A stretch of 64,000 nucleotides of DNA from assembly GCA_000621905.1 (NCBI GenBank), contig JHXB01000011.1, positions 1 to 64,000 on the forward strand, written 5' to 3'. Origin of the DNA: Lachnospiraceae bacterium NC2004 (GTDB lineage: Bacteria; Bacillota; Clostridia; Lachnospirales; Lachnospiraceae). This document shows, piece by piece, positions 8,796 through 59,696 of this stretch. The translations under genes and the position numbers were made by a program. The number at the start of each line of letters is the position of its first letter. Position 1 is the first letter of the stretch. Below the pieces are notes generated by a model. That model was not told the DNA's origin. It ran no database searches and saw nothing but the letters and a program-made list of their open reading frames with translations.

Positions 8796-10778
8796 TTACA
8801 AACCTTTAAATGCGTTAACTACATTGTCAACGGTAAATCCGAACTTCTCGAACAAGAGATTACCCGGTGCAGAAGCTCCAAATCCGGTCATCGCTACTGT
8901 CGTACCATCTAAGCCGACGTACTTATACCAAACATCAGCATTGGCCGCCTCAATTGCAACTCTCTTTCTGACAGTCTTAGGAAGCACGCTCTCCTTGTAA
9001 TCGTCATCCTGCATGTCAAACAACTCAAATGATGGCATGCTGACAACATTAACTTTGATACCATCTGCTGCGAGCTTCTTAGCTGCGTCAATTGCAAGAG
9101 ACACCTCTGAACCTGAAGCCATCAATATTCCATCAGGAGTACCTTCTCCTGCTTTATAAACCACGTATCCACCCTTAAGAGCATCCTTAGAACTACCCTC
9201 AAGCTGTGGAAGATTCTGTCTTGATAACACAAGAGCTGTAGGAGTGCTCTTAGAAGATAATGCCTGATACCAACCATAAGCAGTCTCTGTTGCGTCTGCA
9301 GGTCTGAAAGTAACAAAGTTAGGCATTGTTCTAAACATAGCAAGCTGCTCTATAGGCTCATGTGTAGGACCATCCTCACCTACTCCGATACTGTCGTGTG
9401 TAAGCACATATATTGCAGGTATCTTCATAAGCGCTGAAAGTCTTGCCATAGGCTTAAGGTAATCACTGAAAACGAAGAATGTTGAAACATAACTTCTAAG
9501 TCCGCCATGAAGCAACAAACCATTGCCGATAGCCGCCATCGCGAGCTCTCTTACACCAAAGTGGAAGTTTCTTCCCGAATAATCTTCCTTCGAGAAATCT
9601 CCCGCGTCATTCATATATGTCTTGGTAGAAGGTGCAAGATCCGCCGAACCTCCGACCAAATTAGGAATAATATCTTTTAACTTGTTGATACATACTCCGG
9701 AAAGATTTCTTGTAGCCTGTGGTTTATCTTCATAGCTGAAGAAATCTTCGTTGTTAAGAATAGCATCATAATCAATATCATTAATATACTTCTCAAAAAG
9801 CTCTGCCTTATTCTTATGAGCTGACTTATATGCAGCAAATGTATCATTCCACTGCTGTTCCTTCTTAGCTCCCTCTTCCGCTACAGCCTTGTAGTTGTCA
9901 TACACTTCTTCAGGAACTGTAAATGCATCATAATTCCAGCCTAAATTGTCCTTAAGAGCTTTTAAATTGTCCTCACCCAAAGGCTCACCATGAGCTGATG
10001 CCTTACCTTCCTTCGCAGGACAGCCCGCACCAATCTTGGTATTAATCTTGATAAATGAAGGACGAGTCTTGTCAGCCTTAGCTTCCTCGATAGCCTTACC
10101 GATTGCCTCGGTATCGTTGCCATCCTCAACCTCTAAAATCTGGAATCCAAACGCCTCAAATCTCTCTAAAACATTCTCTCTGAAAGCAATATCAGTACCG
10201 CCCTCTATGGAAATGTTATTAGAGTCATATAAAACTATAAACTTAGAAAGTCCCCATGTACCTGCCAAAGAACCCGCCTCGTATGAAGTACCTTCCATCA
10301 TACAACCGTCTCCGGCTAAAACATAAGTATAATGGTCAACTATATCATAACCGTCTTCGTTAAATTTAGCAGCCAAATGTGCCTCTGCAGCAGCCATACC
10401 AACCGCTGTTGCAAAACCTGCACCAAGAGGACCTGTTGTGGTCTCAACACCAACAGTATGTCCGTACTCAGGATGACCCGGAGTAAGCGAATCCATCTGT
10501 CTGAAATTCTTAATATCTTCAATAGACAAGTCACCGTATCCAAACAAATGAAGGAGTGAATACAGTAACATTGAACCATGACCTGCAGACAATACAAATC
10601 TATCTCTGTTAAACCAGTTAGGGTTCTTAGGATTATGATTCATATGATGAGCCATAAGCTCGTAAGCCATAGGAGCAGCTCCTAAAGGCAATCCAGGATG
10701 GCCTGACTTGGCTTTCTCTATAGCTTCTGCAGATAATACTCTTATCGCGTTAACAGACTTGATATCAATCTCTTTCAT
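8796..10778 (-). CDS. tkt: Transketolase
   Basis: Transketolase moves two-carbon ketol units between sugar phosphates in the non-oxidative pentose phosphate pathway, using thiamine diphosphate. The 660-residue chain has the expected order: an N-terminal diphosphate domain with SGHPGLPLGAAP and the GDGCMMEGTSYE...NN cofactor motif (about residues 155-190), a central Pyr domain with FGVRELAM carrying the catalytic Glu (about residue 405), then the C-terminal domain. It is full length, not the split form found in some clostridia. It has its own promoter region with a dyad and its own terminator, so it is monocistronic. Confidence 0.97.
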   Translation of the reverse strand: MKEIDIKSVNAIRVLSAEAIEKAKSGHPGLPLGAAPMAYELMAHHMNHNPKNPNWFNRDRFVLSAGHGSMLLYSLLHLFGYGDLSIEDIKNFRQMDSLTPGHPEYGHTVGVETTTGPLGAGFATAVGMAAAEAHLAAKFNEDGYDIVDHYTYVLAGDGCMMEGTSYEAGSLAGTWGLSKFIVLYDSNNISIEGGTDIAFRENVLERFEAFGFQILEVEDGNDTEAIGKAIEEAKADKTRPSFIKINTKIGAGCPAKEGKASAHGEPLGEDNLKALKDNLGWNYDAFTVPEEVYDNYKAVAEEGAKKEQQWNDTFAAYKSAHKNKAELFEKYINDIDYDAILNNEDFFSYEDKPQATRNLSGVCINKLKDIIPNLVGGSADLAPSTKTYMNDAGDFSKEDYSGRNFHFGVRELAMAAIGNGLLLHGGLRSYVSTFFVFSDYLKPMARLSALMKIPAIYVLTHDSIGVGEDGPTHEPIEQLAMFRTMPNFVTFRPADATETAYGWYQALSSKSTPTALVLSRQNLPQLEGSSKDALKGGYVVYKAGEGTPDGILMASGSEVSLAIDAAKKLAADGIKVNVVSMPSFELFDMQDDDYKESVLPKTVRKRVAIEAANADVWYKYVGLDGTTVAMTGFGASAPGNLLFEKFGFTVDNVVNAFKGL

Positions 10779-10803
10779 GGTTTTGTCCTTTCAATTCTAC
10801 ATT

Positions 10804-10823
10804 AGTATAGCGTGATAAATCAC
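10804..10823 (-). promoter_or_regulatory. tkt promoter with GTGAT-AA-ATCAC dyad
   Basis: On the minus strand TATACT (10804-10809) is a good -10. Just upstream, inside the spacer, lies the dyad GTGAT-AA-ATCAC (10812-10823), placed where a repressor would block RNA polymerase. No convincing -35 is seen. The regulator is unknown. Confidence 0.5.
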
Positions 10824-10868
10824 ACTGACTTATAATAAATGATTTATAATAAAAATGCAACATCATAA

Positions 10869-11315
10869 TCAAAGTTCTTTAGACATAACTATACCATCTT
10901 CTATAGGATCAGTATAATAATTCTTTCTGACTCCGACATTAACAAACCCAAGCTTGTCATATAATCCTCTGGCAGCCGCGTTGCTCTCTCTTACTTCAAG
11001 CTTGATCGACTTAACACCGTTAGCTGTCTCAAGTGCAAAAAGCTTATCTAAAAGAGCCTCTGCAATATGATTGCGCCTGTATTCCTCAAGCACGGCAATC
11101 CTTGTAATATCCCCGTCATCTACATACTTCATAAAACCTACATACCCGACAACTTGTCCATCGCACTCTGCAATAAGATAATGGTTGTCCATGTATTTGA
11201 AGAAATCGTTGAAGTCGTCCTCACTCCAAGGATTAGTTATACATTTAGCATCTATATCCGCTATAGTTTTGACATCATCAGGAGTCAGCGGCCTTATAAT
11301 TGCAATCTTACCCAT
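10869..11315 (-). CDS. rimI: Ribosomal protein uS18 N-acetyltransferase RimI
   Basis: A 148-residue GNAT-fold acetyltransferase. Beta-strand motif GYVGFM is followed by the acetyl-CoA loop region ITRIAVLEEYRRNHIAEAL (about residues 72-90) and the conserved N-x-x-A-x-x-x-Y-x-x-x-G-F as SNAAARGLYDKLGF. RimI acetylates the N-terminus of S18, and its linkage to tsaB/tsaE is the standard bacterial arrangement. The start is 2 nt from the tsaB stop without a strong binding site of its own, which suggests translational coupling. Confidence 0.92.
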   Translation of the reverse strand: MGKIAIIRPLTPDDVKTIADIDAKCITNPWSEDDFNDFFKYMDNHYLIAECDGQVVGYVGFMKYVDDGDITRIAVLEEYRRNHIAEALLDKLFALETANGVKSIKLEVRESNAAARGLYDKLGFVNVGVRKNYYTDPIEDGIVMSKEL

Positions 11316-11317
11316 AA

Positions 11318-12022
11318 TTATTGATTAGCCAGCCTTTCTTTGCGTTCCCTCTCAGCTTGGGAAATCCTTATATATTCCGGTGCAAATGTATCAGCGTCAA
11401 CAAAGTCATCATCTATAAACTTCTCTTTCGCTCTGAGTGCTAACGCTGCAGCACTCTGATATGCGTTGTTAATCGGTGCGATTCTGTCGTTATCTCTGAT
11501 ATGCTCATCTAAGATGTTTCTGTATCTTACTATGCCATCACCTAGATATATAGCATTATCTTCATAGCTGTTAACCTTATCAATAAGCTCGGTTATACTC
11601 ATAGCGGTAGGTTCAAGAAGAACCTCTAACTTATCATTAACCCTATAAATACCTGTATAAACCTGGTCGCGCCTTGCATCCATAATAGGAACTACAATAC
11701 CGCTCTCTCCATAGTATCTGTATGCCAGTCCCTCTAAGGTTGATACGGCGATAAGCGGTTTAGAAGACGCCAGACATAGTCCCTTAGCAAGCGCAGCACC
11801 TATTCTCAATCCGGTAAATGAACCAGGTCCCGCTGCCACAGCTACAGCATCAACATCCTCAACCTTCTGTCCTACCATAGTCATCATATTCTCTACCATA
11901 GGCAACATAGTCTCTGAATGAGTCTTCTTAAATTGAATTGAATATAAACCTCTTATCTCCTCATCAACAAGCAAGGCACATGTTGCTACCTGACCTGAGG
12001 TGTCTATAGCGAGTATCGTCAT
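11318..12022 (-). CDS. tsaB: t6A biosynthesis protein TsaB
   Basis: TsaB is the non-catalytic ASKHA partner that dimerises with TsaD in the t6A complex. The 234-residue protein begins MTILAIDTSGQVATCALL and carries VAAGPGSFTGLRIG near residue 68, both typical. The ATG at 12022 lies 1 nt after the tsaE stop, and GGAGG inside the end of tsaE serves it. The open frame continues 12 codons upstream but lacks that site, so the shorter form is chosen. Confidence 0.95.
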   Translation of the reverse strand: MTILAIDTSGQVATCALLVDEEIRGLYSIQFKKTHSETMLPMVENMMTMVGQKVEDVDAVAVAAGPGSFTGLRIGAALAKGLCLASSKPLIAVSTLEGLAYRYYGESGIVVPIMDARRDQVYTGIYRVNDKLEVLLEPTAMSITELIDKVNSYEDNAIYLGDGIVRYRNILDEHIRDNDRIAPINNAYQSAAALALRAKEKFIDDDFVDADTFAPEYIRISQAERERKERLANQ

Positions 12023-12023
12023 A

Positions 12024-12449
12024 TTACGCCTCCGTAATCTCAATCTTTCTGTAATCAAAGCCTTTATCTAAATCTTTGACAATCTTAACATATATGGCAT
12101 CGTCAGGAATAATCTCCTCAATCCTGACAGGCCATTCTATAAGGCTTACTCCGTTACCATACACATAATCTTCGTACCCTATCTCATACATCTCATCAGG
12201 ATCTTCAATCCTGTATGTATCAAAATGATAAAGCGGAAGCCTTCCATCCTCATATACCTGAAGGACAGTAAATGTAGGACTGTTGACAGGTTCTTCTATC
12301 CCTAAACCCTTGGCAAAACCCTTGGTAAACACTGTCTTTCCAACACCTAAATCACCATCTAAACATATAACCTTGCCGGCTTCTATAGCTTCAGCCATCT
12401 TAAATCCTAAGTTAAATGTATCTTCAGATGAATAACTTTCATAAATCAT
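12024..12449 (-). CDS. tsaE: t6A biosynthesis ATPase TsaE
   Basis: TsaE is the ATPase that drives turnover of the TsaB-TsaD complex. The 141-residue protein has Walker A GDLGVGKT (about residues 33-40), the family motif YHFDTYRI (about 74-81) and the C-terminal IEWP. Length and motifs are normal. It sits between tex (9 nt upstream) and tsaB (1 nt downstream). Confidence 0.96.
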   Translation of the reverse strand: MIYESYSSEDTFNLGFKMAEAIEAGKVICLDGDLGVGKTVFTKGFAKGLGIEEPVNSPTFTVLQVYEDGRLPLYHFDTYRIEDPDEMYEIGYEDYVYGNGVSLIEWPVRIEEIIPDDAIYVKIVKDLDKGFDYRKIEITEA

Positions 12450-12458
12450 AAATAACTC

Positions 12459-14600
12459 CTAAAGAATCATAGTAAGTGAGATTCTCTTCTTCTTGATATC
12501 TACAGAGAGAACCTTAACCTCAACTACATCTCCCACACTCACAACCTCCAAAGGATGCTTAACATACTTCTTGTTGGTAAGCTGTGAAATGTGAACGAGC
12601 CCGTCCTGGTGAACTCCGATATCGACAAACGCACCAAAATCGATAACATTTCTTACCGTACCCTTAAGAATCTCGCCCTCTCTTAAATCTTCCATTGTAA
12701 GAACATCAGTCCTTAAGATTGGCTTAGGCATGTCTGATCTTGGATCCCTTCCAGGCTTCTCAAGCTCGCTAATGATATCAGTAAGGGTGTGAACACCAAC
12801 CTCAAGCTCTGTTGCAAGTTTCTTAGTGTCCTTAAATCTCTTCTTAAGATCCTTAACACCGCCTGAAATCTCTGATTTATCAATTCCTGCAACCTCTAAA
12901 AGCTTATCGGCAACATTATATGACTCAGGATGCACACTTGTATTATCGAGAGGATTGTCACCACCGGCAATACGCATAAATCCTGCACACTGTTCAAATG
13001 CTTTAGGTCCAAGCTTAGGAACCTTGCTAAGTTGCTTTCGATTGGTGAACTTACCATTCTCCTCGCGGTAAGTAACTATATTCTTGGCTATAGTCTTGTT
13101 GATTCCTGAAACTCTCTCTAAAAGAGGCGCAGACGCAGTATTAAGATCTACTCCTACCTGGTTAACGCAGTCCTCTACCACACCATCTAACGCAGTTGAG
13201 AGATGCTTCTGATTCATATCATGCTGATACTGACCTACTCCGATAGCCTTAGGATCAATCTTAACAAGCTCCGCTAAAGGATCCTGTAATCTTCTTGCGA
13301 TTGACGCTGCGCTTCTCTGTCCTACATCAAACTCAGGGAACTCTTCGGTAGCAAGCTTACTTGCCGAATATACTGAAGCGCCGGCTTCATTTACAATTAT
13401 GTACTGTAATGGCTTATCCATCTCAGAGATGAAATCGACAATAACCTGCTCAGACTCTCTTGACGCAGTACCGTTACCGACAGATATGAGTGAAATGCCA
13501 TACTTGTCTACCAAGCTCTTAAGAGTCTTCTTAGCTTCCTTAACTTTATTCTGTGGAGCAGTAGGATAAATTACAACTGTGTCTAATACTTTACCTGTCT
13601 CATCAACAACAGCAAGCTTACAACCTGTTCTAAATGCAGGGTCCCAGCCTAATACAACCTTACCTGCAATCGGCGGCTGCATAAGTAACTGTCTTAAATT
13701 CTTCATAAATACTGTGATTGCCCCGTCTTCTGCAGTCTCAGTAAGCTCACTTCTAATCTCTCTCTCGATTGAAGGCGAGATTAATCTGTCGTAAGAATCC
13801 TCTAATGCAAGATCGATATATGAATCTGTGTTAGGATTCTCTTTCTTCTTAACATGATTCATAAGATATCTTACCGCCTTGTCCTTAGGTGGCTCAATCT
13901 TAACTGTAAGGAACTTCTCTTTCTCACCACGATTAATAGCAAGAATCTGATATCCTGACAATTTATCAAGAGTTGAAGTAAAATCATAATAATTCTCATA
14001 TACTGATTCTGCTTCCTCATCCTTAGCTTTAGAGATAAGAATACCTTCTCTAAATGTAAGTTTACGGATATAAGTACGATAATTGGCATCATCAGAAACA
14101 GCCTCTGCAATAATATCCATAGCGCCGTTAAGAGCTTCTTCTTCGTTAGCTACTTCCTTCTCTTCTGAGATATAAGCCTTAGCTGCCTCTTTAGCATCTA
14201 CATCAAGCTTCTGCTTCATTATGTCAAGAGCTAAAGGCTCTAATCCCTTCTCCTTCGCAATCATTGCTCTCGTTCTTCTCTTAGGCTTATACGGCCTATA
14301 TAAGTCCTCTACCTCTACCAAAGTAGTAGCTTCCTCAATCTTCTTCAGAAGCTCCGGAGTCATCTTCTCCTGCTCTGTTATGCTATCGATAACAGCAGAC
14401 TTTCTCTCCTCTAAATTACGCAAATAGGTTAGACGCTCATCTAAGTTTCTGAGCTGCTCATCGTTAAGATTGTCTGTAACATCCTTACGATATCTCGCTA
14501 TGAAAGGGATTGTATTGCCCTCGTCAATAAGCTTAACCGCAGCCTCAACCTGATTAGGTCTAACCTTAAGTTCTTCTGATATAATCTTTATAATATCCAT
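12459..14600 (-). CDS. tex: Tex-family RNA-binding transcription accessory protein
   Basis: Tex proteins bind nucleic acid and associate with transcription. Here 713 residues carry the standard order: helical N-terminal Tex domain (1-200), YqgF-like RNase H-fold core (about 315-440, with VVLGWDPAFRTGCKLAVVD), helix-hairpin-helix region (about 480-560) and a C-terminal S1 domain (about 640-713, with GTVRNVIDFGAFVDIG). It is the longest gene in the secreted protein-comEB-tex-tsaE-tsaB-rimI operon. Start and length match the family. Confidence 0.95.
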   Translation of the reverse strand: MDIIKIISEELKVRPNQVEAAVKLIDEGNTIPFIARYRKDVTDNLNDEQLRNLDERLTYLRNLEERKSAVIDSITEQEKMTPELLKKIEEATTLVEVEDLYRPYKPKRRTRAMIAKEKGLEPLALDIMKQKLDVDAKEAAKAYISEEKEVANEEEALNGAMDIIAEAVSDDANYRTYIRKLTFREGILISKAKDEEAESVYENYYDFTSTLDKLSGYQILAINRGEKEKFLTVKIEPPKDKAVRYLMNHVKKKENPNTDSYIDLALEDSYDRLISPSIEREIRSELTETAEDGAITVFMKNLRQLLMQPPIAGKVVLGWDPAFRTGCKLAVVDETGKVLDTVVIYPTAPQNKVKEAKKTLKSLVDKYGISLISVGNGTASRESEQVIVDFISEMDKPLQYIIVNEAGASVYSASKLATEEFPEFDVGQRSAASIARRLQDPLAELVKIDPKAIGVGQYQHDMNQKHLSTALDGVVEDCVNQVGVDLNTASAPLLERVSGINKTIAKNIVTYREENGKFTNRKQLSKVPKLGPKAFEQCAGFMRIAGGDNPLDNTSVHPESYNVADKLLEVAGIDKSEISGGVKDLKKRFKDTKKLATELEVGVHTLTDIISELEKPGRDPRSDMPKPILRTDVLTMEDLREGEILKGTVRNVIDFGAFVDIGVHQDGLVHISQLTNKKYVKHPLEVVSVGDVVEVKVLSVDIKKKRISLTMIL

Positions 14601-33150: not shown

Positions 33151-33855
33151 TTATGTTCTTATAGTAAGATCAATTCCATCCATGTATATGTCAGGCCTTA
33201 CTGTATTAGCAAACTCTTTATAGTCTTCTTCTTTAATCATGCTTCTTCGCACCGTATCTACCTTTATCCACTCATCGAGCGTAAGCGGAACATAGTCGGA
33301 ATACATACAAAAGCAGTTAATCATCTGACAAGGCGTATTGATAGTGTCCTTCTCCTTCTTAACCGGTCTTTTAAGAGACTTGGTCTCATTAATAAATTGA
33401 TTAATGAGATATTCGTCAAATGTATCATGTACATGCCCATATAACATATAAGTCTTAGGATTGCCATCCTTATCTTTGTGAAACTGGCCATCATAACACA
33501 TAATCGGATAATGGCTTAGTATAACCGAGCGCTTATTGTCCTTCATTTTCTTATATGGTGTAATCCACATAAAATTACTCTTGTCAAACTTAGAATCGTC
33601 TAAGTACCTATGATCGTGGTTACCCTCAATCAAGCCAATCTTACCGTTAAGTCTGCATAAAATCTCAGCAGTCTCAGAAGGCTTTCCCATAGAGAAATCA
33701 CCAAGGACTATAACCTCATCGCGCTTATTAACTCTCTTATTCCATTGATTAATCATGTACTCATGCATCTTCTCAAGACTCTCAAAACCTCTGTGATCCA
33801 TATCATTCAACAGATTCTCATGATAAAAATGCAAGTCTGCAATATAAAATCTCAA
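33151..33855 (-). CDS. Metallophosphoesterase
   Basis: A 234-residue calcineurin-like phosphoesterase. The metal motifs are clear: IADLHFYHEN (D-x-H), VIVLGDFSM (GD), LIEGNHDH (GNHD), LSHYPIM and MLYGHVHD (GH-x-H). The start is taken as TTG 33855 because AGGAG is 7 nt upstream and the protein then opens at the first beta strand (LRFYIADLHF). The frame continues upstream into the neighbouring gene without a binding site. Substrate unknown; it follows the leucine-rich-repeat gene by 14 nt. Confidence 0.9.
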   Translation of the reverse strand: MRFYIADLHFYHENLLNDMDHRGFESLEKMHEYMINQWNKRVNKRDEVIVLGDFSMGKPSETAEILCRLNGKIGLIEGNHDHRYLDDSKFDKSNFMWITPYKKMKDNKRSVILSHYPIMCYDGQFHKDKDGNPKTYMLYGHVHDTFDEYLINQFINETKSLKRPVKKEKDTINTPCQMINCFCMYSDYVPLTLDEWIKVDTVRRSMIKEEDYKEFANTVRPDIYMDGIDLTIRT

Positions 33856-33869
33856 TCGTTCTCTCCTAA

Positions 33870-35993
33870 CTAGTCTACATATATCCTCTGTGTTTTCCAT
33901 TTGCCGTATGTTGTGGTACCACCACTAACCTTATAAGGTCTTACTCTGATATATATATCGCCGCTAAACGGCTTGTCAATCTTAAATGCGGCTGATGTAC
34001 TCTTAATCTTCTTAGAATATATGTTATTCTTATACTTGTTATCGGTAAATGCTTTAACCTGATATCCTGTGGCTTCGTTAACGGAAGCAATGTATATGGT
34101 ACGTTTGGTACTCTGATTCATTTGCATCAAATCAGTTGGACCGTCTTTATCCCAGAGTTCAAAAAATGATATTCTGTTCTTAAACTCACCTGTATAAACC
34201 ATTGTAAGATTTCTGACTGAGTCAAATGCATAAGTATCAAGGCTGGCTTCAGGATTAAGTACATTCACTCGCTTGCTACATGTACTGTAATTAAGCTTGG
34301 CCATGTCTTTATTATCAAGCCACGATGTATACTTGCCATCCGCTTTAAAACAATATGCGCCGACCTTCTTGACACTTGAAGGCAATGTAATATTGGTATA
34401 CGGCACCATATAAAAGGCTCTTACACCAAGAGTTGTAATACCGCCCTGATTAAGTATACTGTTGATGTCAATATTGTAACAATTCTCAAACGCACTGTTG
34501 CCGATAGTCTTTATCGTGTCCGGAAGCTTCACTTCCTTTAACCTGTTGCAATACTCAAAGCACTCTTCTGGCAACTTGGTGAACTCACCGTTAAACACTA
34601 CCTTCTCGAGTTTATTGGCACCACTGAACGCGCTTCTAAATGCCGTAGCATTTTTAGGAACAAACACTTCCTTAACCTTAGTGAATTCAATAAATGAATT
34701 ATCAAGAACTTTGATTGATTCCGGAAGTGTTAAAGACTTTAAAGAGGTTCCTGAAAAAGCTTGAATTCCTATCTCTTCTAAACCATCATTTAGAACAATC
34801 TCCTCTAGAGTGCTAAGATCTCTAAATCCTTGATTCTCTATCCTCTTAACATTCGGTCCAAGAATAACTTTCTTAGTTGTTACGTTAAACCCTTCTGTTT
34901 CGTTGTTAAATGAGACTATTAACTCCACTGAATCAGGTACAGTAACCACCTCTTCATCGCCAAAATAGTGATATGCAATCTTACCGTCAGAGGATATAAC
35001 ATACTTACTATTGTCTCCGTCTCCCGACACCTCGTCATACAGGAGAAAACCGTTAACCAACTCGATATATCCTGCATTTGCCAAAGCAGTTATAACCGGC
35101 TTAAAATTGTCCGTAACCGCAACTAGCTTATCTATATCTTCTTTAGGGAGCTTGCTTGTCTTTATCTCAAAATTCTTGAGTGACATAAGCGGCCACATAT
35201 ACTCTTCATCATCAAATTCTATATGAGAAACACTCTCAGGTATGGTCAGCGACTTTAGGGTATTAACAGAGTAATCATCATCTTCTCCCGCAAAATACGT
35301 ATATGTAAGTGCGCTTGATTTAATCGTTTCACATGTATCACTCACCTTTAGCGTTTCCACACCACCAAGAACTCTTAACAAAGTCTTACCGCTCTTGTTG
35401 TAGATTGCGCCTCCGACAGTAATGTATTTAGGATCATCCTCAAGAAGCGTTATATTCTCGGCTCTTACATACTTTAAGGTATCCAGTTTAAAATTAGTTG
35501 TGAAATTAATGGTCTTGATATTATCAGAACCTGTTATTATACCCGTGCCTTCATCACCTGTACTTTCCCATGAAATCTTCATGCTTCCGGGCATTTTGAC
35601 AGTTGTCTTAACCGATGTTCCGGCTAACGCTGCGCATCCCATCGTCTTAACAGACTTAGGAATGGTGATATTCCTATACGCACCGCCATAAAATGCATAT
35701 GGCCCGATATCCTTAACAGTACTTGACAGCTTGACTTCTTTAAGCTTCTTGCATTCGTAGAATGCGTAAGGAGGAATTGATGTAACCCCCTTCTTGATAA
35801 CTACCTTCTTGATTGATTTCTTCTGTGCAGCCGTCGGAGCATTGGATGCTTTCATCTTGCCCTTACCCGATACAGTATAAGTTCCGTCAACAAGACTTGT
35901 CTTAACCGCTGCCGACGCGCTAACATATGAAAAACAAAATGTAATAGATATTATAAATATGAATATCGTGATGATCTTTTTAAAGTTACTCAT
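33870..35993 (-). CDS. Secreted BspA-type leucine-rich-repeat protein
   Basis: A 707-residue exported protein. It has a signal peptide with core IITIFIFIISITFCFSYVSA and cleavage near ASA at about 27. Many 20-24-residue BspA repeats follow (about 75-560), recognisable by units such as LKEVKLSSTVKDIGPYAFYG, IPKSVKTMGCAALAG and LPDTIKTIGNSAFENCYN. A C-terminal fibronectin-III-like unit (about 615-707) ends in QRIYVD. Such proteins are commonly surface adhesins of gut and rumen bacteria. No LPXTG or SLH anchor is seen, so it is probably released or held by another factor. Confidence 0.92.
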   Translation of the reverse strand: MSNFKKIITIFIFIISITFCFSYVSASAAVKTSLVDGTYTVSGKGKMKASNAPTAAQKKSIKKVVIKKGVTSIPPYAFYECKKLKEVKLSSTVKDIGPYAFYGGAYRNITIPKSVKTMGCAALAGTSVKTTVKMPGSMKISWESTGDEGTGIITGSDNIKTINFTTNFKLDTLKYVRAENITLLEDDPKYITVGGAIYNKSGKTLLRVLGGVETLKVSDTCETIKSSALTYTYFAGEDDDYSVNTLKSLTIPESVSHIEFDDEEYMWPLMSLKNFEIKTSKLPKEDIDKLVAVTDNFKPVITALANAGYIELVNGFLLYDEVSGDGDNSKYVISSDGKIAYHYFGDEEVVTVPDSVELIVSFNNETEGFNVTTKKVILGPNVKRIENQGFRDLSTLEEIVLNDGLEEIGIQAFSGTSLKSLTLPESIKVLDNSFIEFTKVKEVFVPKNATAFRSAFSGANKLEKVVFNGEFTKLPEECFEYCNRLKEVKLPDTIKTIGNSAFENCYNIDINSILNQGGITTLGVRAFYMVPYTNITLPSSVKKVGAYCFKADGKYTSWLDNKDMAKLNYSTCSKRVNVLNPEASLDTYAFDSVRNLTMVYTGEFKNRISFFELWDKDGPTDLMQMNQSTKRTIYIASVNEATGYQVKAFTDNKYKNNIYSKKIKSTSAAFKIDKPFSGDIYIRVRPYKVSGGTTTYGKWKTQRIYVD

Positions 35994-36029
35994 TAGCCCG
36001 CTCCTCCCAAATATCTCATTTTACTGTAT

Positions 36030-36058
36030 ATTATCCCCCAACACATTATGGTTGTCAA
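36030..36058 (-). promoter_or_regulatory. Promoter of the 707-aa LRR gene
   Basis: On the minus strand TTGACA (36053-36058), a 17-nt spacer, GATAAT (36030-36035), about 40 nt before the ATG. Confidence 0.75.
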
Positions 36059-36082
36059 TTAAGAAAAAAGTGATGCATATTA

Positions 36083-36147
36083 TAATACAAAAAAGAGCCC
36101 CAAAGGGACTCTTTTTATTACCAAGTAATTATCTCTTAGAGAACTGT
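36083..36147 (-). repeat. Distal copy of 65-bp direct repeat (rpsI 3' end plus terminator)
   Basis: Identical over 65 bp to 36244-36308. It holds the last five rpsI codons, the stop and the terminator, but has no gene attached. The copies are 161 bp apart. It looks like the outer att site of an integrated element or a partial tandem duplication. Confidence 0.9.
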
Positions 36148-36243
36148 CGTAGCGTTAAGCAAACGTGCCTGTGACACGTTTGTAGCGGAGAAATGCGAAG
36201 CTATGCTGAGCATTCCGCTCGTTAGAGCGGGATGATTACTTGG
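36148..36243. other. 96-bp structured insert between the rpsI-end repeats
   Basis: This segment is not related to rpsI. It contains the arms AAACGTG/CACGTTT (36160-36178) and CCGCTC/GAGCGG around GTTA (near 36215-36230), plus an outer AGCGGA...CCGCT pairing. It ends with GATGATTACTTGGTAAT, the near reverse complement of the ATTACCAAGTAAT of the distal copy. No frame of useful length is present. It could be a small palindromic repeat or what is left of a larger element. Confidence 0.7.
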
Positions 36244-36308
36244 TAATACAAAAAAGAGCCCCAAAGGGACTCTTTTTATTACCAAGTAATTATCTCTTAG
36301 AGAACTGT
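36244..36308 (-). repeat. Proximal copy of 65-bp direct repeat, containing the true rpsI end
   Basis: Includes the rpsI 3' end with its stop (36290-36292) and the terminator GAGTCCC-ttt-GGGGCTC (36256-36272) followed by six T on the minus strand. This copy is joined to the intact rpsI gene. Confidence 0.9.
36250..36277 (-). terminator. rpsI terminator (first of two identical)
   Basis: GAGCCCC (36256-36262) and GGGACTC (36266-36272) form a 7-bp stem with a 3-nt loop and a T6 tail on the minus strand. The second copy is at 36089-36116. Confidence 0.88.
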
Positions 36309-36685
36309 GGTGCTCTACGAGCTTTCTTAAGACCGTATTTCTTACGCTCCTTCATACGAGGATCACGAGTTAAGTAACCAGCCTTCTTAAGTACAGGACG
36401 ATAATCCTGATCAGCCTCAGTTAAAGCTCTAGCGATACCATGACGAATAGCACCGGCCTGACCTGTGAATCCGCCACCCTTAACGGTAACGACGATATCG
36501 TACTTGCCGTTAGTCTTAGTAAGCTCTAATGGCTGACGAACGATAATCTTTAAGGTCTCAAGTCCAAGATACTCATCAATATCTCTCTTGTTAATTGTAA
36601 TCTTACCACTGCCACCCGGGATTAAGTAAACACGAGCGACGCTATTCTTTCTTCTACCTGTTCCGTAGTACTTCTCACTTGCCAC
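36290..36685 (-). CDS. rpsI: 30S ribosomal protein uS9
   Basis: uS9 sits in the 30S head, and its C-terminal tail reaches the P-site tRNA. The 131-residue protein has [12 protein letters not shown] at the start, the central [19 protein letters not shown] and the [10 protein letters not shown] tail with the terminal Lys-Arg that contacts tRNA. It starts at GTG (36685) with AGGAGGAAG upstream. It is the second gene after rplM. Its 3' end is duplicated downstream (see 36083-36147), yet the reading frame is intact. Confidence 0.98.
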
Positions 36686-36702
36686 GATAACTTCCTCCTT
36701 TA

Positions 36703-59565: not shown

Positions 59566-59585
59566 AGTAAGACCATTAACTTAAA

Positions 59586-59669
59586 TGCGGATAACAAGAC
59601 TTGAACTTGCACGGTATTGCTACCACCAGCACCTGAAGCTGGCGCGTCTGCCGATTCCGCCATATCCGC
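59586..59669 (-). tRNA. tRNA-Leu (anticodon CAG)
   Basis: An 84-nt class II tRNA. The acceptor arms are GCGGATA (59663-59669) and TATCCGC (59587-59593). The anticodon stem CCAGC/GCTGG holds the loop TTCAGGT with CAG, and the long variable arm uses GGTA...TACC. The T arm has GTTCAAGTC. CCA is not encoded, so the tail must be added. It has its own promoter and terminator. Confidence 0.93.
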
Positions 59670-59696
59670 AAATGTTGCCAAATCACAACAAGTGAA

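Follow-up and report, generated by a model that had tools for sequence, protein, structure and literature searches.

Hairpin-Rich, Gene-Less Repeat Units at the 3' Ends of rpsI, lepA and tRNA Genes in Clostridia

Introduction

The 64,000-nt stretch of DNA analysed here (the window; Lachnospiraceae bacterium NC2004, contig JHXB01000011.1, positions 1 to 64,000 of the forward strand) carries the 3' end of rpsI, the gene for ribosomal protein S9, twice. Over 65 bp the two copies, at 36083-36147 and 36244-36308, do not differ; one mismatch appears if the comparison is extended to 68 bp. They lie 161 bp apart from start to start, both contain CAG TTC TCT AAG AGA TAA plus a terminator, and they enclose an insert of 96 bp (36148-36243). 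How did a conserved gene come by a spare end, and what is the structured DNA in between? An earlier note on this sequence described the duplication correctly and offered three explanations for it: a deleted integrative element that had left its attachment (att) repeats behind, a tiny non-autonomous element, or a slip of replication.

The explanation that we favour, with moderate confidence, is that elements without genes and rich in hairpins recur as a class, here called 3'-tail repeat units, that they are moved by site-specific recombination, and that this feature is one of them. To our knowledge, the repeats at tyrT of Escherichia coli have been a curiosity without parallel since 1978. With the same anatomy, and covarying hairpins, now seen at rpsI, at lepA and at nine kinds of tRNA gene in clostridia, that curiosity becomes a testable class, which poses the question of whether its members are minimal mobile elements, decoy attachment sites or RNA devices. 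It also means that exact direct repeats at attachment sites do not necessarily signal deleted islands.

Results

Recurrence was assessed in 397 genomes of the family (presumably Lachnospiraceae), 315 of the order and 336 of the class (presumably Clostridia). A nucleotide search of the family set (E ≤ 0.001) matched eight genomes; of the five inspected, four hold units (the window's own genome, G000, with G101, G215 and G410) and one holds a plain rpsI end (G277), the other matches being in G136, G247 and G274. The aligned stretch took in the outer tail and some of the insert in G101 and G215, and was shorter in G410. A coding pattern requiring two tails that encode QFSKR*, 146-176 bp apart, was found in 10/397 family genomes, where the reversed-pattern control gave 0 throughout, and in 4/315 genomes of the order, including two of another family (G471 and G601). 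The unit is also present in the named records L032 and L038, the latter being the unit of G234. Start-to-start spacing across 14 rpsI loci was 150-189 bp.

Units also occur in tandem at rpsI, with two in G267 and four, of two alternating types, in G206. The G206 array lies on a contig of 2.45 Mb, and an array at a tRNA gene in G293 lies on one of 4.5 Mb. As the same anatomy is present in other assemblies, including these arrays on long contigs, an assembly artefact, for which the earlier note had allowed, is unlikely. The exact 65-bp repeat is what a replication slip or such an artefact would leave, yet the presence of the unit in other assemblies with covarying stems refutes this for the class, and for the window we regard it as scarcely credible. 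At the thresholds used, the window's unit was found once in its own genome, so the repeats of the insert elsewhere that the note had suggested looking for did not appear.

In G111, a congener of the array genome G410, a 3.4-kb locus has one tail. In G404 (L187), of the same genus as G101, the assembly has a run of N precisely across the rpsI 3' end, which makes an empty site unreadable there. A pattern for hairpin C (Table 1) matched 9 of 60 relatives with at most one mismatch, and exactly in G000 only; two of the other matches were inspected by eye (L105 and L101) and showed no tail repeat or unit. Searches with the unit region gave only matches starting in rpsI among phage records (11/50,697 records) and no match among plasmid records. 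Among 80 rpsI contigs, 22 contig ends fell within 1 kb downstream of rpsI and 3 within 1 kb upstream (Fisher p = 4e-5); an excess of this kind is expected at a variable or repeated site and may reflect one here, with other causes possible.

The several hairpins that the earlier note had seen in the insert were confirmed by folding. The 142 nt at 36148-36289 gave z = -9.4 as DNA and z = -8.6 as RNA, with 0/200 shuffles equally stable, and the DNA z of five units ranged from -8.4 to -10.8 (the L120 and L113 stretches in this test were cut slightly off the unit bounds). In the comparison of six units, 16/30 base pairs were altered on both sides and 89.7% of cells were paired; 0/500 shuffles reached any of the five measures, and sliding the partners abolished the values. 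As controls, 65 ordinary rpsI downstream regions had a mean z of -4.0, and z was -8.4 or below in five of them; 3 of the 12 units tested folded at z -3.9 to -5.5 only. Ordinary downstream regions thus fold well too, which weakens folding as proof of a unit, and the argument rests on covariation together with recurrence.

The main rival explanation concerns this structure. Here the feature would be a locally duplicated multi-hairpin 3' region, kept by selection for its RNA or terminator structure and homogenised by gene conversion; it could serve as a double or bidirectional terminator, a 3'-end stabiliser or a small RNA of the tyrT kind. The strong folding of the five units, the covariation, the A-tract and T-tract that flank hairpin C, and the shared anatomy of the E. 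coli tyrT repeats, annotated as rttR and tpr, all speak for it. So does the terminator sequence common to both copies in three genomes, with shared stretches of 64 nt in G000, 58 nt in G101 (truncated by the contig end) and 50 nt in G267; stretches of this length fit either a recent event or a local duplication. The 65-bp identity in the window similarly suggests a recent event or homogenisation between copies. Selection on RNA would leave unexplained a left edge that is fixed where an attachment site is in use, the differing synonymous codons in the tails, the patchy distribution and the occurrence of one module at rpsI, lepA and many tRNA genes, and its appeal to folding meets the same downstream controls. 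We judge it possible and somewhat unlikely.

The edges of the repeat are uneven in their precision. When first and last tails were compared, the left edge lay within 1 nt of CAGTT in 14/14 rpsI loci and the right edge ranged from 6 to 64 nt; judged from the sequences, such edges look like those of site-specific recombination. In the window's lineage the 3' end of rpsI serves as an attachment site, as is evident from two relatives. In G002, of the same genus, a 12.6-kb satellite-like island (L009/L149, C55) is flanked by two copies of the rpsI end, which remain similar over 60 bp or more. The island encodes a phage-type integrase, a helix-turn-helix (HTH) repressor and a D5-type protein (D5_N/DUF5906). 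The congener G004 is 97% identical to the window genome (897/922) through rplM-rpsI and diverges right after CAGTTC, with its serine codon swapped. Thus the earlier note was right to name the rpsI end as an integration site, and the island-bearing relative that it proposed to look for exists. Searching viral contigs with the core yielded 25 loci; 14 hold an rpsI end, and in 9 of these 14 an open reading frame (ORF) with a tyrosine-recombinase motif starts 146-779 bp beyond it.

A used attachment site raises the idea of sacrificial sites, spare gene ends kept to divert incoming integrative elements from the gene. The copies do match the bases at the junction of the rpsI integrase elements. Such elements restore the gene anyway, and islands inside arrays were not seen, although no systematic search was made; we consider this explanation highly improbable.

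The two tails of a locus can differ at synonymous positions only. Those of G227, found by the covariance model R1 described below, differ at 6/18 bases and both encode QFSKR*. Synonymous-only differences were also found at two bases in L038/G234, at one in G767/L202 and at two in the lepA tails of G716/L196. Because the coding pattern itself demands QFSKR* in both tails, the argument counts only the loci found by the model (G227, G767 and lepA) or with a nucleotide mismatch (L038). On the simplest reading of these sequences, the near copy would have arrived with the unit, and the far copy would be the gene's former end.

The island in G002 bears equally on the scar proposed by the earlier note, in which a larger rpsI element was reduced to its ends (attL, 96 bp, attR) in the manner of a cis-mobilizable element (CIME). 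CIMEs that keep their att sites are known from PMC5704250, and the part of the proposal that places an attachment site at rpsI in this lineage stood. The part that invokes a one-off deleted island did not, as the unit recurs in many relatives and in tandem arrays. Independent deletions would yield neither a like structured 130-170 bp in many genera nor such arrays. The three larger tail-flanked inserts examined (G002, L030 and L047) had no R1 match, and no remnant of an integrase or gene-bearing element was found inside the 96 bp, which has no ORF of its own. The note had named both copies with the same spacer in many unrelated relatives as evidence against a scar; for a spacer of the same kind this largely holds true, yet island-bearing relatives exist as well. 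We hold a scar to be quite improbable for the window. A tiny non-autonomous element came nearest of the note's three guesses.

Wider spacings between rpsI ends were seen at three loci. In L030 (AP025573.1, Lachnospiraceae bacterium CE91-St61; ~10376-11205), copies of the rpsI end lie ~0.8 kb apart around a gene-bearing insert that encodes DUF4160 and DUF2442 proteins, a pair that we take to be a possible toxin-antitoxin system. In L047 (Lachnoanaerobaculum sp. ICM7; 10376-13053), two rpsI ends 2.66 kb apart enclose one long open frame and, by eye, an apparent integrase remnant. In L091, from an Oscillospiraceae metagenome-assembled genome (10361-10822), a GC-rich palindromic stretch separates rpsI from an exact second copy of its end, 444 bp downstream.

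The wider class was sought with covariance model R1, built from six rpsI units with the gene-end copy left out and applied at E ≤ 0.01. It matched 18/397 family genomes and 71/336 class genomes; the E-values of R1 are rough, so some of the 71 are chance matches. The 18 comprise seven with rpsI units, seven with tRNA-tail loci (G006, G239, G293, G320, G321, G368 and G395), one with dispersed copies (G067), one that is unclear (G363) and two matches that look like chance (L169 in G187 and L166 in G390). Besides the window's own locus, 19 loci (L196-L214) were fetched from the class search. A tRNA gene is present in 13/19, and a direct gene-tail copy stands at the module in 13/19: ten at tRNA genes (L197, L199, L203-L207, L209, L212 and L214), two at rpsI (L198 and L202) and one at lepA (L196). 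The last, from G716, has the module at 1501-1568 between two lepA 3' ends (lepA was identified by NCBIfam) with a start-to-start distance of 115 bp, and provides a second protein-gene target.

Over all loci examined, the tails of nine kinds of tRNA recur (Leu, Gly, Arg, Pro, Ser, Lys, Trp, Asp and Thr). The first tail copy lies mostly 141-205 nt downstream of the tRNA, and inverted tail stretches are met mostly 39-63 nt on; in many loci it is the terminator hairpin that carries the inverted stretch. At rpsI the inverted tail is clear in G206 and G325, other rpsI units invert solely post-stop sequence, and the inverted stretch of G000 consists of the core end and bases after the core. In control loci (overlapping loci kept), tail copies were found in 0/21 other tRNAs; 24 were tested, and the 3 positives were the G293 locus again. 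A shorter unit, of 88 bp, is found in G006. In the same genome, a tRNA-Arg-like stretch on the minus strand of L171 (~1838-1763) has, by eye, a 5' acceptor strand mismatched to the 3' tail, as would result from replacement of the tail by a unit; ARAGORN makes no call there.

Discussion

Repeats of 178 bp at tyrT/tyrV of E. coli were reportedly described by Egan and Landy in 1978. In E. coli K-12 the tyrT repeats are annotated as rttR/tpr in NC_000913. At tyrV, the terminal 19 bp of the tRNA gene recur 159, 337 and 515 nt after the gene, with a period of 178 bp; inverted tail stretches lie at 59, 237 and 415 nt and are followed by the hairpin GTTGCCRCAGGCAAC and then by the next tail. By analogy of layout, the window feature is built like the tyrT repeat: the order is the same, the spacing similar, and each unit has a gene-tail copy. 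The tyrT repeats differ from the clostridial units in being confined to tRNA-Tyr, with no protein-gene case. R1 had no match at the E. coli tyrT locus (L185) at E ≤ 1, so the likeness is one of anatomy and does not establish common descent.

Larger elements use the same target. The 3' end of rpsI is the target of integrative and conjugative elements (ICEs) and integrative and mobilizable elements (IMEs) of Streptococcus (PMC4701971, PMC5704250) and of the mecD islands of Macrococcus, McRImecD (PMC13304753). They carry an integrase and other genes over kilobases, whereas the window unit is a gene-less series of hairpins. Among open PubMed Central papers, screened by titles and the starts of abstracts, no description of gene-less units at rpsI was found, which does not prove absence.

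We propose that a unit would consist of a gene 3'-end copy, a terminator hairpin, more hairpins and the next gene-end copy. Site-specific recombination just inside the gene would place it at the 3' end of rpsI, lepA or a tRNA gene, where it would bring its own tail, restoring the gene and leaving the old tail on the far side. Repeated insertion or unequal recombination would then let arrays grow. Such a unit would be an integrative mini-element devoid of genes and dependent for its movement on a recombinase acting in trans, most likely of the tyrosine type, that cuts just inside the gene end and presumably recognises folded DNA. The units probably move or multiply by recombination at gene ends.

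Several results weigh against this proposal. ORFs with a recombinase motif (regular expression, ORFs of at least 100 codons) numbered 0 in 9.5-12 kb around five rpsI arrays, and the short repeated motifs made out by eye beside the phage integrases were not seen in the units. A homologue of the G002 rpsI-island integrase (E ≤ 1e-15) was absent from 11/13 rpsI-array genomes, the two exceptions being G471 and G000, in the latter on another contig; this integrase is unsupported as a resident partner. One module serves cores of no common sequence, which a single classical integrase fails to explain; recognition of the folded module would fit better. The modules of different hosts are 63-81% identical (21 pairs), against 69-83% for rpsI, with no consistent excess for the module, and recent transfer does not follow from this comparison. 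No excision or circle was observed. The long shared stretches in G000, G101 and G267 can, as said, be read as local duplication. Of the 19 fetched class loci, 6 have no direct gene-tail copy beside an identified gene: L208 has an inverted tail only, L200 has rpsI-like tails without rpsI, L210 and L213 have a repeat without an identified gene, and nothing was found in L201 and L211. Finally, the five dispersed module copies of G067 all lack a flanking direct repeat of at least 11 nt.

These G067 copies, four of which lie within a longer alignable non-coding repeat, would suit a palindromic element that prefers gene 3' ends and is moved by a single-strand transposase, with the tail copies as by-products. 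Repetitive extragenic palindromic (REP) sequences and bacterial interspersed mosaic elements (BIMEs) are likewise short, non-coding and palindromic, and are dispersed as in G067. At most other loci examined, however, the module accompanies copies of one particular gene end, often in arrays, and the REP mechanism yields no such copies; we regard an element of this kind as improbable.

The proposed insertion of units by recombination also invites comparison with integrons, whose cassette arrays are tandem series of small units with an imperfect attC hairpin beside the junction, conserved in structure beyond sequence, and in these respects alike. Our units differ in having no cassette genes, several unrelated cores and no recombinase found near the five arrays. 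The attC boxes (consensus RYYYAAC/GTTRRRY) were not matched by eye: rpsI has GTTCTCT and the tRNA copy edges lack GTT. Extended to the class, our proposal would describe gene-less mobile elements of ~90-220 bp, single or arrayed at tRNA, rpsI and lepA 3' ends across Clostridia and recognised by folded structure over core sequence, an integron-like system of gene-free cassettes with the tyrT repeat as its enterobacterial counterpart. We put this forward tentatively, and in this full form think it unlikely.

Features of the Window Locus

The features of the locus are collected in Table 1. In the window, rpsI is preceded by rplM, the identity of which was confirmed by family search. The order 3' of the rpsI stop is terminator, hairpins A, B and C, a linker (CTTAACGCTACGA), the second rpsI end and the second terminator. 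The earlier note had the gene intact at the inner copy and the insert devoid of a reading frame, and both points held: QFSKR* is retained there, and among ORFs of at least 60 codons none belongs to the 96 bp, which only the end of a mechanical 71-codon ORF (35959-36174, plus strand) enters. The second inverted arm that it had noticed is real, at 22 nt with 91% complementarity. The T hairpin stem has 24 nt on one side and 12+12 with a 3-nt bulge on the other, and hairpin C is flanked by an imperfect outer stem (TCTCCGC/GCTACGA) with 4/7 pairs in the window.

Table 1. Coordinates of the duplicated rpsI end and its hairpins in the window.
Feature	Position	Strand	Remarks
rpsI (ribosomal protein S9) coding sequence	36290..36685	-	Intact, ends in inner tail copy; Pfam Ribosomal_S9
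Inner 65-bp copy	36244..36308	-	ACAGTTCTCTAAGAGATAA (last five codons and stop; core 36290-36307) and most of terminator
T hairpin	36236..36289	-	Intrinsic-type terminator, stem reaching stop codon; includes the inverted arm of the earlier note
Hairpin A	36215..36230	-	CCGCTC-TAAC-GAGCGG
Hairpin B	36192..36214	-	Inner GC-ATA-GC (G101: GC-GTA-GC); stem covaries between genera
Hairpin C	36160..36182	-	Stem covaries between genera
Conserved module	36147..36214	-	R1 match, 84.8 bits (window sequence among the six seeds of the model)
Outer 65-bp copy	36083..36147	-	Spare rpsI tail (core 36129-36146) and second terminator

An Rfam search of window positions 35900-36700 gave 15 matches, 0 of them at the gathering score, and in a search of 12 loci just one tRNA was matched. 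No tail repeats were seen by eye at the window's tRNA-Leu (59585-59670).

A different strongly folded element was observed in L033, L064, L074 and L079, where it occupies the first ~150 bp after rpsI, directly beyond the stop codon. It has a long closing stem and an arm like GATGACCG...GCGAAGCG, diverged in L079; neither a tail copy nor an Rfam match was found there. Downstream of the window unit, 33870-35993 on the minus strand encodes a secreted-looking repeat protein of 707 aa, and the next ORF (33151-33900, minus strand) is metallophosphoesterase-like, both being named by eye.
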